Assembly (NCBI GenBank): GCA_020631045.1
Contig: JAHDHZ010000026.1
Span: forward strand, 1-37,267
Source: Flavobacteriales bacterium
GTDB lineage: Bacteria > Bacteroidota > Bacteroidia > Flavobacteriales_G > JALEGO01
Direction: 5' to 3'
Length of the DNA stretch: 37,267 nucleotides
Shown here: positions 31,967 to 37,267 of the stretch, piece by piece
How positions within the stretch are numbered: position 1 is the stretch's first letter
Layout: every line of letters begins with the position of its first letter
Program-made: the position numbers and the translations under genes
Notes under the pieces: model-generated
Told to the model about the DNA's origin: nothing
What the model saw: the letters and a program-made list of their open reading frames with translations, nothing else
The model's database searches: none

Positions 31967-33712
31967 TTATTTGACACCATGCATTAAACGATTGAGTACT
32001 GGATTTAATAACGCAATAAGCAAACCTGCAGCAATGGGTACAATTGTGAAAATTAAAAAGAAGGTAGCCATATCGTAGTGCTCTGTGATTTTATCAATTT
32101 CTCCACCTATTTTTCCGGCTAACTTGTTGCCAATTGCAATCGCTAAATACCAAACACCAAACATTAAGGCAATCATTCTTGAAGGCACTAGTTTACTGAT
32201 ATAAGAAAGCCCTAAAGGAGATAGACACAGCTCACCAAGTGTATGAAACAAGTAAGCCATGATTAACCATACCATACTGATAGAAGCTGATTCAGCACCT
32301 TGAGGAATCGCTTTTGATCCGTAGGCTAAAAATCCAAAACCAAGCCCGAGCAACACAAGCCCGAAGCAATATTTCATGGCTGCTGAAGGATTGTATTTGC
32401 TTTCCCACCATTTTGAGAATAATGGCGCTAGGGCAATGATGAAAAATGAATTTAAAATACCAAACCAAGAGGCAGCAACTTCAGTAGAATTGCTTGAGAA
32501 ATAAGCATTAAGTTTTACACCAACCACAATCCAAACTAAAATAAAGGCAATGGCTAAAATGATGTTCGATAGTAAAATTCGCTTATAGGTTTGTTTAAAA
32601 AGTAAATAAAGCACATAAGTGACAATAATAAGTGGTGTGACTGTTAAAATTGTATCACAAATTTTAAAAATGGTAGCGGCGCTCCCATCTAATACTCTGT
32701 TGGTATAGTCTCTTGCAAAAATACCCAGAGAACCTGCAGCTTGTTCAAATGCAGCCCAAAAGAAGACTGTAAAAAATGCAAAGATTGCAACAGCAATCAT
32801 TTTGTCGCGCACTAAAGGAGTGTAGCGAAGAATGCGACTAACTAATAAAATTATAAAAAGAACAAGAGCGGTAATGATGGCAAAAGTTGATCCGTCTGTT
32901 GATGCGATTGAGAAGTTGAATAAATTGATGTTGCCTATTTTAGATAAAGGGTCGTTGATAAGCCAAGTAAAGCCAAGCAATCCAGAAACACTCATCAAGA
33001 TCTTATCTATTAATGTGAATGGATTGAGTTTGTCTCCTTCAGGTACGATAATTTCTTTGGTTGCTTGCGTATTGGGTTTATCACCGATCCCATCAAAAAT
33101 ATCTGCAGCCAACCAGAATTGTAACATACCCAAGAGCATGAAAATTCCTGCTAGACCAAAGCCCCAGCTCCACCCATAGGTTTCAGCTAAATATCCACAC
33201 AGCATGATTCCAAAGAAAGCTCCTGCATTCACGCCCATGTAGAAAACTGTATAGGCACCGTCTTTTTTGTCTTCATGGTCTTGGTACATTTCAGAAATCA
33301 TTGAAGTCATCGTGGGCTTGAAAAAACCAGTGCCTACAACCATGAAAATAAGTCCTAAATAAACAAAAAGAGGAGTTTCAATAGCCATGCAAGCATGGCC
33401 TAAGGTCATGATTAAAGCGCCAATTACGACAGCTAATCTGTAACCTGTAAATTTATCTGCAATGTATCCACCAATGATAGGGGTGAGGTACAGTAATGAG
33501 GCGTAAGTTCCGAAAAGCGCCATGGCGTTTTCTCTAGGCCATTCCCAACCTGGATTGTCGCTTACAAAAGGAGCAGTTAAAAACAAGACCAGTAAGATAC
33601 GCATTCCATAAAATGAGAAGCGCTCCCACATCTCTGTGAAGAATAAGACGAACAGTCCTGAGGGGTGTCCAAGTACTGTGCTTTTAAAAAGGTGATCGAA
33701 TTTACCGCTCAT
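31967..33712 (-). CDS. POT/PTR2-family peptide:proton symporter, long form
   Basis: 581 residues and about 14 membrane segments. The family proton-coupling motif ExxER is at E27-E30-R31 (FTEMWERFSFYGMR), followed by FFKPTMTSMISEMYQDHEDK and the PTR signature (YTVFYMGVNAGAFFGIMLCG). The C-terminal part has FHTLGELCLSPLGLSYISKL. An inserted region of about 120 residues around 220-340 (with LTVTPLIIVTYVLYLLF nearby) makes it longer than its neighbour. It imports di- or tripeptides with protons. It lies 10 bp after the second transporter gene in one leftward operon. Confidence 0.92.
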   Translation of the reverse strand: MSGKFDHLFKSTVLGHPSGLFVLFFTEMWERFSFYGMRILLVLFLTAPFVSDNPGWEWPRENAMALFGTYASLLYLTPIIGGYIADKFTGYRLAVVIGALIMTLGHACMAIETPLFVYLGLIFMVVGTGFFKPTMTSMISEMYQDHEDKKDGAYTVFYMGVNAGAFFGIMLCGYLAETYGWSWGFGLAGIFMLLGMLQFWLAADIFDGIGDKPNTQATKEIIVPEGDKLNPFTLIDKILMSVSGLLGFTWLINDPLSKIGNINLFNFSIASTDGSTFAIITALVLFIILLVSRILRYTPLVRDKMIAVAIFAFFTVFFWAAFEQAAGSLGIFARDYTNRVLDGSAATIFKICDTILTVTPLIIVTYVLYLLFKQTYKRILLSNIILAIAFILVWIVVGVKLNAYFSSNSTEVAASWFGILNSFFIIALAPLFSKWWESKYNPSAAMKYCFGLVLLGLGFGFLAYGSKAIPQGAESASISMVWLIMAYLFHTLGELCLSPLGLSYISKLVPSRMIALMFGVWYLAIAIGNKLAGKIGGEIDKITEHYDMATFFLIFTIVPIAAGLLIALLNPVLNRLMHGVK

Positions 33713-33722
33713 AATATTATGT

Positions 33723-35078
33723 TTAGTGGCCTACAGAAGTTTTCAAGTCTTCAGCTCCATGCGTAAGGCGTTTCAATGGTTTTAGCATTGCAAGAACGAT
33801 AGCCCCGAATATGGCGCAGAAAATAGCAATGCCTGTAAAGACTTGAAATTCACCAGCACCTTCAACAGCGTGTTCTCCTAAAGATCCTGCGATTTTATTT
33901 CCAAATCCGGTTGCAGCAAAGTAAGCCCCCATCATAAAGGCAGCATATTTAGCAGGAGCCAATTTTGTAATAAAAGAAAGTGCAACAGGTGAAGCGCACA
34001 ACTCTCCGATCGTATGAAATAGATAGGCCAATACGAGCCAAATCATAGCAGATTTTGCAGTTACTTCATCGCCTGACATCTGAACTTCAGTTGAAGCTTT
34101 AGACATGAATAAAAACCCTAATCCCATAATGATGAGTCCTAGGGCCATTTTAAAAAGAGAAGAGCTTTCACGGCCTTTCATCTTCCAATTGTGCCAAAAT
34201 CCTGCTACCGGAACTCCTAAGATCATAATGTATAAAGGGTTTAAAGATTGAAACCAAGAGGTTGGCACTTCAAAAGCTCCTAGTAAACGATCTGTTTTCT
34301 CAGAGGCATAAAGGTTCATCAATCCTCCCGCTTGTTCAAAAGCTCCCCAAAAAACAATGATGAGTAAGAACGATAAGAACATCACAAGCATTCTATCTTT
34401 TTCAACTTGTGTTAAGGGTTTTTGAGAAAGATCTTCTCCTGTTGAGCTGTCAGTAGAAAGTAAATTGCCTACTTCTGCTAAGTGCTTTTGACCCATGATG
34501 TAGACCAGTTGCCCGAATAACATTCCGATTCCGGCTAATCCAAATCCGTAATGCCAACCCCAAGCCTCGCCAATGTACCCGACCAATAAGCTCGCAGCAA
34601 ATGCTCCAACATTGATGCCAATATAAAAAATAGAAAATCCTTTGTCTCGACGCTCATCTCCGTCTTTGTACAATCCACCCACCATAGTAGAAATGTTAGG
34701 TTTTAAAAGACCAACGCCCAGAATAATTAATAAAAGACCTGTATAAAAGGCCCATATTTGTTCAACTGCTAAGATACCATGCCCTGCACAAAGTAAGAGC
34801 CCTCCGTACATAACAGCTTTTCGCTGACCAAATAACTTATCGGCAAGCCATCCACCCGGAATACTCATCACATAAACCAGCATAGTATACCAGCCGTACA
34901 ATTCAATTGCTTCAGCTTTTGTCCACCCAAGCCCGGCGTTTGCATCAGTTGTTTTAGCGACCATGTAAAGTACTAGAATCGCCCGCATACCGTAGTAAGA
35001 AAAGCGCTCCCACATTTCAGTGAAAAACAGTACAAATAGCCCGATAGGATGTCCGAAAATTTCTTTTTGATTACTCAT
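33723..35078 (-). CDS. POT/PTR2-family peptide:proton symporter, short form
   Basis: 451 residues, shorter than the usual 490-520 of the family, with about 12 membrane segments. ExxER is at E21-E24-R25 (FTEMWERFSYYGMRA), with LLKPNISTMVGGLYKDGDER and FSIFYIGINVGAFAASLLVG. The pair of extra helices often found between the two halves is missing; a polar linker (LSTDSSTGEDLSQKPLTQVE) occupies that place. It is probably functional as a 12-helix transporter. It is the first gene of the leftward operon with the long form and the thioredoxin-like protein, and diverges from the recombinase gene. Confidence 0.92.
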   Translation of the reverse strand: MSNQKEIFGHPIGLFVLFFTEMWERFSYYGMRAILVLYMVAKTTDANAGLGWTKAEAIELYGWYTMLVYVMSIPGGWLADKLFGQRKAVMYGGLLLCAGHGILAVEQIWAFYTGLLLIILGVGLLKPNISTMVGGLYKDGDERRDKGFSIFYIGINVGAFAASLLVGYIGEAWGWHYGFGLAGIGMLFGQLVYIMGQKHLAEVGNLLSTDSSTGEDLSQKPLTQVEKDRMLVMFLSFLLIIVFWGAFEQAGGLMNLYASEKTDRLLGAFEVPTSWFQSLNPLYIMILGVPVAGFWHNWKMKGRESSSLFKMALGLIIMGLGFLFMSKASTEVQMSGDEVTAKSAMIWLVLAYLFHTIGELCASPVALSFITKLAPAKYAAFMMGAYFAATGFGNKIAGSLGEHAVEGAGEFQVFTGIAIFCAIFGAIVLAMLKPLKRLTHGAEDLKTSVGH

Positions 35079-35217: not shown

Positions 35218-36294
35218 ATGCATTCGGTGAAATTATACTGTTATCAAAAGAATCGTTCTGTCGCTTATTTAGAATGTCCTTTTGAAGAACCTTACTTAAA
35301 TATTGTGAAAGCCATTCCGTATTCTCAATGGCAAATAGGGCCAGTCGATCGTTTGAAAATTAAAAACACGCCTGATTTATTGCCTGTCATCTTCAAGGTT
35401 TTTAAACATGTTGCATGGGTAAACATTGATCGTTATCTCACTGCTCGAGATCCTGTGCATGAATCAAAAAATACGAGAAAGTATTTAAAAAAGCTCGTCT
35501 ATTTAAAGTACAGTAAGGCAACGATTCTTACTTATATGTATTTTTTTAGGTTGTTTGACATTCATTTCAAAGAGAAAATTGATCAATTAACTCAAGAAGA
35601 GGTAGAGGATTTTCTTTTATTCACCAGCAAACAAAGAAATTATGTTTCTTCAACAACCAATCAAATGATTAATGCAATCAATTTTTACTATACGCAAGTT
35701 ATTCAAGATGAAAGAATTCCATTTTTTTTAAGAAGGGCAAAAAAGATGCCAACTTTGCCAAAAGTACTAACCAAGCAAGAGGTGAGGCTGGTACTTTCTA
35801 GAACCTTGAATTTAAAGCATCGCTTAATTTTATCTTTAATTTATTCTGCAGGTCTAAGAGTAGGAGAGGTCTTGAAACTAAAGATCAAAGATGTTGATTT
35901 TGAGCGTTGTACTTTAAATATTACAGCCTCAAAAAACAATAAAAGTAGAACTACTATTTTTTCTAGAAACCTTGTTACCGATCTTAAAAAATATTTATCA
36001 GTTTACAGGCCAAATGTATTTCTATTTGAGGGTTTTTACCAAAGACCTTATTCTGCAACAAGTGTGCGGTCTATTTTAAAAAAATCTTTAAAAAAAGCAC
36101 ACATAAAACAAACAGGGATTACAGTACACACACTAAGACATAGTTTTGCGACACACCTTTTAGAGTCAGGAGTAAACTTGAGATACATTCAAAAACTTCT
36201 AGGCCATTCAAACATTTCTACCACTCAAATTTACACTCATGTTACAACCCAAAAACTTATTGATATCACAAACCCTCTTGATTACCCAATTTGA
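35218..36294 (+). CDS. Tyrosine recombinase/integrase
   Basis: 358 residues. The C-terminal catalytic domain (about 178-350) has a full set of residues: R214 (SAGLRVGE), K239 or K242 (ASKNNKSR), H304-xx-R307 (HTLRHSFATHLLESG), H330 (LLGHSN) and Tyr339 (TTQIYTHV). A SAM-like core-binding domain spans about 85-170. The first 75 residues form an additional domain (IPYSQWQIGPVDRLKIKNTP, VAWVNIDRY) found, as I recall, on some Bacteroidota recombinases. It lacks the roughly 20-residue insertion near the HxxR block that marks integron IntI, so it is Xer/integrase-like rather than canonical IntI. Downstream lies a gene bracketed by inverted repeats, so it may act on those. Confidence 0.92.
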   Translation: MHSVKLYCYQKNRSVAYLECPFEEPYLNIVKAIPYSQWQIGPVDRLKIKNTPDLLPVIFKVFKHVAWVNIDRYLTARDPVHESKNTRKYLKKLVYLKYSKATILTYMYFFRLFDIHFKEKIDQLTQEEVEDFLLFTSKQRNYVSSTTNQMINAINFYYTQVIQDERIPFFLRRAKKMPTLPKVLTKQEVRLVLSRTLNLKHRLILSLIYSAGLRVGEVLKLKIKDVDFERCTLNITASKNNKSRTTIFSRNLVTDLKKYLSVYRPNVFLFEGFYQRPYSATSVRSILKKSLKKAHIKQTGITVHTLRHSFATHLLESGVNLRYIQKLLGHSNISTTQIYTHVTTQKLIDITNPLDYPI

Positions 36295-36540
36295 ATTTCT
36301 TTGCCTTTTAATTGTTTTCAGTATTTGCTTATGTGGATGTTGAGGTTTTTTATAGGTGTTCAAGGTTTATTTCTAGTGAGATTTTCGTATAGTTTAAATT
36401 AGTGAAGTGCCACTATACTTTACTAGTTTGAATAAATCAATTAATTAAACCTTTAGTATTTGATAAAAGAATTTTTTTGAAAAAAATATTAGGCAGACAA
36501 TCTTCGATATTTTATTGTTATTATTGTAAGTACATTTGTT

Positions 36541-36567
36541 TGCTAAAAACAATAACGTTTTTTAGCA
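36541..36567. repeat. Imperfect hairpin next to the left cassette boundary
   Basis: TGCTAAAAAC (36541-36550) pairs with GTTTTTTAGCA (36557-36567) with one bulged base and a 6-nt loop. It is not followed by a T run, so it does not look like a terminator for the recombinase gene. It ends 2 bp before the 12-bp boundary repeat and could be part of a recombination site. Confidence 0.55.
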
Positions 36568-36569
36568 AG

Positions 36570-36581
36570 TAGTTGGGGCAC
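36570..36581 (+). repeat. Left boundary repeat of the cassette-like unit
   Basis: TAGTTGGGGCAC. The exact inverse, GTGCCCCAACTA, lies at 37190-37201 just after the following gene. The internal GTTGGGG differs at one position from the integron core site GTTRRRY. Confidence 0.8.
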
Positions 36582-36601
36582 ATTTTCTTCCAGAACTTGA
36601 T

Positions 36602-37183
36602 ATGATTAAAAAAAGTACATCTCCTGTTTTATTAGTTCTTTTCTTTTTCTTCTCTTGCTCACAGGATAAAAAAATAGAATTAGATTATACTCCTTATTAC
36701 GATATCTATTCATTAAGTCAAATTAATGACTCAATTTGGAAAGACACGCTATTATATGGTTCAAAAACAGATCCATATAATAGATTTATTTCACCAATGC
36801 TTTTAGACATTAAAGACGATTATGGACATAGAGATAGTTTATTTCCAGAAAGTACATTATCTAAAGTAGAATATTCTAAATCACCTTCTATATTTTCAAA
36901 ATCTCTTTCAATCAATCAAATAAATAATCTACTTGAAACAATTAATAATCCAATAAATTTAGGATGGGGTGAAACTACATATCAAGCTGAAGGAAAGTTT
37001 AAGTTTTATAACACAGAGAATAAACTAATTGCAGTTCTATCTCATATGAGCAATAATTATATAAAAGTCGAATATATAAAAGATCAGAAAATTTCTAGAA
37101 ATTTTGAATATAAAAAATTCAAATTTGGTGAACTAAGAGGTAAAGGCGTTACTCAGTTTAACAATGTATTAAAAGAATTATAA
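36602..37183 (+). CDS. Lipoprotein of unknown function, cassette-like gene
   Basis: 193 residues with lipoprotein signal VLLVLFFFFSC (Cys19). The mature part is polar with regular beta segments (WGETTYQAEGKFKFYNTENK, IKVEYIKDQKISRNFEY) and no domain I recognise. The gene is noticeably richer in A and T than the core genes, suggesting horizontal acquisition. Its ATG is 20 bp after one boundary repeat and its stop 6 bp before the inverted copy, so almost no non-coding DNA lies between them. That packing is typical of integron gene cassettes. Whether the protein does anything for the recombinase or merely travels with it cannot be told. Confidence 0.78.
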   Translation: MIKKSTSPVLLVLFFFFSCSQDKKIELDYTPYYDIYSLSQINDSIWKDTLLYGSKTDPYNRFISPMLLDIKDDYGHRDSLFPESTLSKVEYSKSPSIFSKSLSINQINNLLETINNPINLGWGETTYQAEGKFKFYNTENKLIAVLSHMSNNYIKVEYIKDQKISRNFEYKKFKFGELRGKGVTQFNNVLKEL

Positions 37184-37189
37184 AACAAC

Positions 37190-37201
37190 GTGCCCCAACT
37201 A
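37190..37201 (-). repeat. Right boundary repeat of the cassette-like unit
   Basis: GTGCCCCAACTA, the exact reverse complement of 36570-36581, preceded by ACAAC directly after the gene stop. In an attC-like reading this would be the first arm of a longer imperfect palindrome whose second arm lies beyond the window. Confidence 0.8.
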
Positions 37202-37225
37202 GCTGTAAAATTCATTAAGCCAGCT
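37201..37225. repeat. Small hairpin within the right site
   Basis: AGCTG (37201-37205) and CAGCT (37221-37225) form a 5-bp stem around 15 nt. It follows the right boundary repeat and fits the nested-arm layout expected of a folded recombination site. The remaining bases to 37267 are AT-rich without a visible gene. Confidence 0.4.
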
Positions 37226-37267
37226 CTTTACGTAATTCATCAATTTTTACTTATCTTTATTCAAAAT

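Follow-up and report, generated by a model that had tools for sequence, protein, structure and literature searches.

A putative integron-like cassette array beside a tyrosine recombinase without the IntI insertion at a contig end of a Flavobacteriales bacterium

Organization of the contig end

The stretch of DNA analysed, hereafter the window, is the whole contig JAHDHZ010000026.1 (37,267 bp) from a 2.34-Mb assembly of 86 contigs. Its 3' end carries the following features.

35218-36294, plus strand: complete tyrosine recombinase of 358 aa (PF00589, E=8e-40; PF13495, E=3.6e-10)
36540-36568: candidate attI, an inverted repeat with 10-bp arms around a 9-bp loop, separated by 3 bp from the first GTT
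36572-36584, plus strand: putative cassette start GTT-GGGGCAC-ATT, an R'-type arm with the pattern of 51 cassettes from relatives
36602-37183, plus strand: 193-aa ORF, gene of the putative first cassette
37187-37199, plus strand: R''-type arm with the sequence AAC-GTGCCCC-AAC, which complements the cassette start
37187-37267, plus strand: attC-like site, of which only the first half precedes the contig end; the only match to the covariance model R1 in the window
About 37202-37220: L''-type arm GCTGTAAAATTCATTAAGC, within the half-site
37252-37259, plus strand: TATCTTTA, similar to the -7 box of Bacteroidota promoters and situated in the attC loop; a lead only

Just upstream of the recombinase, two neighbouring genes coding for POT-family (PTR2) transporters lie on the minus strand (31967-35078).

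The first-pass annotation had described a 12-bp sequence and its inverse around a single gene, downstream of a complete recombinase and on the same strand, and all of these elements were located. TAGTTGGGGCAC occurs at 36570-36581 on the plus strand and its exact reverse complement at 37190-37201, the 193-aa ORF lying between them with 20 bp ahead of its start codon and 6 bp past its stop. The boxes CCCCAAC/GTTGGGG differ, as had also been noted, from the canonical RYYYAAC/GTTRRRY at the outer base. The 193-aa protein matched no protein family and had a single weak homologue among 395 genomes; a signal peptide and a lipobox read by eye at its N-terminus indicate that it is probably a lipoprotein. 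The inverted repeat at 36540-36568 has a parallel in about ten relatives, in which a repeat of 8-14 bp is followed by the first GTT within about 5 bp. The repeat together with the GTT (36540-36574) would act as the attI, and the crossover of the first cassette would take place at G^TT, between 36572 and 36573.

Only 68 bp remain between the R''-type arm (37199) and the contig end. The half-site gave a weak, 3'-truncated match to R1 of 12.3 bits (E=0.24 over the window and 0.0062 over 36295-37267), and its stretch GTAAAATTCATT is identical in a site of locus L106. Folding of the truncated 98 nt at the contig end alone was uninformative (z=-0.07), and Rfam gave no match in the window end or in the arrays of relatives, one tRNA excepted. 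R1 detected no full-length site in the rest of the assembly. A genome of the same genus (G001) contained neither the recombinase nor the sites, therefore the element is at least not fixed. The contig shows one cassette and half an attC, and the array would presumably continue past 37267 in this genome.

Taken alone the 12-mer is unremarkable in 37 kb, at least two matches with up to 2 mismatches being found in 39 of 100 shuffles. No further copies with up to 2 mismatches were present in the window, and elsewhere in the assembly only five copies, each with one mismatch, were identified. When the 973 bp located 3' of the recombinase were shuffled by mononucleotide, the full signature GTT-N7-AT ... 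AAC-N7'-AAC with complementary N7 appeared in 1 of 20,000 cases; in the window a cassette with such ends (36572-36583 / 37187-37199) lies directly 3' of the recombinase on the same strand.

Cassette arrays and attC-like sites in relatives

Of 59 other near relatives, 14 encode a homologue of the recombinase with roughly 35-48% identity; counting the own genome, the figure is 15 of 60. In the class, presumably Bacteroidia as judged from named Bacteroidota relatives, 57 of the 396 genomes carried one, the own genome again included. A search of genome contigs with the single recombinase protein retrieved distant recombinases only. The surroundings of the homologous recombinases were searched for GTT-N7-AT ... 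AAC-N7'-AAC with complementary N7 at a distance of 150-4500 bp, and 51 cassettes were recovered in 25 loci, all of them downstream and on the recombinase strand; the same signature yielded no cassettes on the opposite strand and none upstream of the recombinase. The cassettes measured 246-3448 bp (median 813), and in 44 of 48 the longest ORF was encoded on the strand of the array. In L109, a locus from a single-contig genome, seven cassettes follow each other head to tail, the first one 48 bp past the matched recombinase region. Genes in the arrays include those for a streptomycin adenylyltransferase-like protein, an NB-ARC/TPR protein and an HTH protein.

The arms are 10 bp long and cassette-specific, matching within a cassette and differing between cassettes (44 distinct among 51). 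The first-pass annotation had expected the 12-bp motif itself to recur downstream; such recurrence is not to be expected, and since arms differ from cassette to cassette, literal recurrence of the 12-mer is the wrong test and a lack of further copies does not speak against the cassette reading. A search within an array for perfect R''/R' hairpins recovered next to nothing, R' being part of the following cassette; pairing the start with the end of the same cassette was the search that worked. The tandem cassettes, paired arms and attC-like hairpins of the relatives support the earlier proposal that the first site of the window is an attI/cassette-start junction and the second the start of an attC.

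Comparisons among the arrays of relatives suggest that cassettes move as units bounded by GTT. L102 and L108, from two species of one genus, have first cassettes with 97.5% identity, which begins exactly at GTT while the preceding sequence and the next cassettes differ. Near-identical duplicate cassettes in L113 (734 bp, 99.7%) and L103 (2926 bp, 99.6%) likewise began at GTT within one base. In the arrays downstream of the recombinases of L113 and L044 the identity of some duplicates stopped just past R'' and the remaining attC differed, as if exchange had happened at the R'' side too.

A repetitive array 3' of the recombinase would be expected to break contigs on that side. Among 46 contigs shorter than 1 Mb that carry the recombinase, the nearer end was on the 3' side in 40 (binomial p=3e-7), and 23 ended within 3 kb 3' of the recombinase versus 2 within 3 kb 5' of it.

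Between cassettes, sites of about 64-207 nt have the order R''-L''-variable loop-L'-R'. In an alignment of 25 sites, 16 of 18 inner-stem pairs had changes on both sides, and stem covariation was 0.488 versus 0.114 in shuffled alignments and no more than 0.113 when the partner was slid, some of these sites having been selected for complementarity. A.C mismatches of the top strand, which are T.G wobbles on the bottom strand, were conserved in the stem, at one position in 21 of the 25 sites and at another in 13; most sites had these mismatches and no bulge in the stem columns, and a few had bulges of 1-2 nt. In a set picked with A.C allowed, the bottom strand gave the more stable fold in 37 of 44 sites (p=6e-6); for sites picked by cassette ends only, the count was 11 of 13 (p=0.01). 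In canonical attC sites extrahelical bases are present and the bottom strand is the one recombined (PMC2727003). The sites described here differ from them in their R boxes, the R'' arms fitting RYYYAAC in 4 of 51 cases, and in having symmetric A.C (top) or T.G (bottom) mismatches and mostly not extrahelical bases.

The -7 box-like motif TANNTTTR was present in 14 of 38 attC loops, versus 4.6 in shuffles (maximum 10 in 500 shuffles), and was enriched on the top strand only; a cassette may therefore supply a promoter to the gene that follows it. A search of the attC loops for a complete Bacteroidota promoter, with both the -33 and the -7 element, found none.

The model R1 was built from attC-like sites, some of which were selected for complementarity. 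Around the recombinases it detected 114 sites in 54 loci and 110 of these, as read from the table, were downstream on the recombinase strand, the exceptions being L110 and one weak match in L047. L110 breaks the general rule, with sites on the strand opposite to the recombinase and on both sides of it. At E<=1e-9, R1 sites were found in 266 of 396 sampled genomes of the class, and 61 of 118 genomes sampled across the phylum, other classes among them, also carried sites. No sites were detected in 100 kb of E. coli or near 12 canonical IntI genes. Among 15 genomes picked for their sites, 13 had a match to the recombinase profile, most with sites on the same contig. The order of recombinase followed by same-strand sites was also found on plasmids of Chryseobacterium sp. 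SNU WT5, Rufibacter tibetensis, Pontibacter kalidii and Persicobacter sp. JZB09. Single-contig genomes contained up to 40 sites. In three of these (G366, G334 and G163) sites also cluster far away from all recombinases of this family, which recalls the CALIN of canonical integrons, clusters that lack an integrase.

In 79 viral contigs with a scorable recombinase, R1 sites accompanied 8 of 25 insertion-less enzymes versus 0 of 54 enzymes with a split match, the insertion type (Fisher p=4e-5); the site type therefore tracks the enzyme type. Eight putatively viral IMG/VR loci (L138, L142, L154, L157, L160, L186, L204 and L129) have short insertion-less recombinases lacking the N-terminal domain, with the sites on the opposite strand at the 5' side of the recombinase, a divergent layout as in canonical integrons. 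Two of the eight contigs are 114 and 170 kb long, and L157 carries about ten sites in 3 kb. Two cellular contigs from other classes of the phylum (G447:C33 and G453:C44) are divergent too, with the recombinase on the plus strand and the sites on the minus strand to its left.

Relation of the recombinase to IntI and Xer

The catalytic residues R214, K239, H304, R307, H330 and Y339 are intact and occupy columns that are invariant in 40 homologues, and from these residues (R, K, H/R, H, Y) the enzyme is predicted to be active as a tyrosine recombinase. The first-pass annotation held that it lacks the IntI-specific insertion and has an extra N-terminal domain, and both statements were borne out. 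The insertion (I2, about 42 residues, near patch III) is absent, the region having 45 residues versus 87 in IntI, and the N-terminal domain comprises about 85 aa. This domain showed a weak profile likeness to the HARP domain of SMARCAL1 (best PDB match 4O66, E=0.092; Pfam HARP, E=7.8e-4 in 1 of 40) and to DUF5710 (best E=2e-6, 8 of 23), neither similarity being significant for the window's own protein. One may speculate that it binds folded or forked DNA. Short relatives without the domain also accompany such sites, often in divergent orientation, therefore the domain is not needed for site use.

The recombinase scored below the cut-offs of TIGR02249 for the integron integrase (190 versus 265 bits), of NF040815, named tyrosine recombinase/integron integrase, and of the curated XerC and XerD models (168 and 159 bits versus 330 and 335). 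The nearest solved structure by sequence was the XerC-like 4A8E, ahead of IntI4 (2A3V), and IntI4 aligned to the recombinase in two pieces. XerC/XerD and XerA have the same catalytic fold and are likewise without I2. An AlphaFold2 model from the single recombinase sequence (mean pLDDT 36.5) was discarded. The phylogenetic tree, to be read with caution because of its long branches, placed the family of the window recombinase together with IntI against XerC/XerD (support 100/99). IntI formed a single branch (100/100) and the family was not resolved as a clade, so that IntI may be a sister group of the family or a lineage within it. The genome's own XerC and XerD are separate genes located elsewhere, 32-37% identical to the recombinase, and fell outside the clade of the family and IntI.

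Canonical IntI above the cut-off was found mostly outside the class of the window (38 of 39 genomes), and in the IntegronFinder 2.0 report (PMC9024848) Salinibacter ruber was the only member of Bacteroidetes proper with a complete integron. The part of PMC8138268 considered here notes incomplete conservation of the insertion within the tyrosine recombinase subgroup that it calls 'integron-like', and describes no cassette arrays or attC-like sites for insertion-less members.

Proposed system and its implications

We judge it very probable that the contig end covers the 5' portion of an integron-like cassette array. The recombinase (35218-36294) would act on the adjoining attI, that is, the inverted repeat plus GTT at 36540-36574, and would integrate and excise circular cassettes, each consisting of one gene and one attC-like site, whose outer arms (GTT-N7 ... 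N7'-AAC) would pair within the same cassette. The 193-aa gene would be cassette 1, its own attC beginning at 37187. The folded bottom strand would be the substrate, presumably through the single-strand mechanism of canonical integrons, and the adjacent enzyme would perform the recombination. Canonical integrons, such as the Vibrio superintegrons and class 1, likewise combine a recombinase with tandem single-gene cassettes on one strand, and share the better folding of the bottom strand, chromosomal and plasmid arrays and integrase-less clusters. Canonical attC sites have the same R''-L''-variable loop-L'-R' order as those of the relatives, with the GTT/AAC core and mutually complementary arms per cassette. 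As judged from sequence, the system seems to act like an integron and yet to stand outside the canonical IntI/attC family: its recombinase lacks the IntI insertion, has an additional N-terminal domain and stays below the TIGR02249 cut-off, and the array is usually downstream of it and co-directional with it. The separate integron-like lineage suggested by the first-pass annotation agrees with the insertion-less homologues that precede same-strand tandem cassettes in relatives.

That the locus is a canonical integron with a merely diverged IntI might be argued from the mixed best curated names (NF040815 and TIGR02249, both below cut-off), the grouping of the family with IntI against XerC/XerD and the identical R-L-loop-L-R layout. 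This is very improbable and largely refuted by the insertion, which was missing in 46 of 46 homologues (45 versus 87 residues; one outlier of 52). The few R'' arms that fit RYYYAAC, the lack of R1 sites near the 12 canonical IntI genes and in the 54 insertion-type viral loci, and the co-direction of recombinase and array also speak against it. A further alternative, in which XerC/XerD move cassette-like modules similar to pdif modules and the neighbouring recombinase is a bystander, would accommodate short paired arms, enzymes that likewise lack the insertion and those site clusters without a recombinase nearby. We give it just as slim a chance, as the sites track the recombinase family in orientation and distance through dozens of genomes and plasmids, the genome has its own XerC and XerD elsewhere, and the arms vary with the cassette and belong to a long hairpin, whereas dif sites are fixed sequences and not cassette arrays. 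A chance arrangement, or an ordinary transposon-like gene that carries terminal inverted repeats beside a recombinase, is scarcely credible, for although the window alone shows just a gene between inverted 12-bp repeats that are themselves not rare, the full signature almost never arose in shuffles, the unit has no transposase, and in relatives tandem arrays with arms differing per unit follow the recombinase on one strand.

Beyond this locus, we lean towards a second integron lineage across Bacteroidota chromosomes, plasmids and some viral contigs, without I2 and with folded single-stranded attC sites from which extrahelical bases are mostly missing. According to PMC7790495, I2 docks the extrahelical bases and makes single-strand recombination possible; as the insertion is missing here and most sites are without such bases, recognition must differ from that of IntI. 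No published description of such an insertion-less integron-like system was found in the open-access PMC literature, the scope of which does not include bioRxiv.

If true, the second lineage would represent either the condition that gave rise to IntI or a solution reached independently, and it would manage without I2, which is thought to have made the use of folded single-stranded attC possible. The sites in two thirds of the sampled genomes of the class and in other classes would represent a large mobile gene pool, apparently not annotated as such, with the streptomycin adenylyltransferase-like gene among its genes. The array 3' of the recombinase may explain why many draft genomes break just past the recombinase gene. 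Such a lineage would make it testable whether the I2 helix is required for single-strand attC recombination, and whether it came before or after cassette systems.
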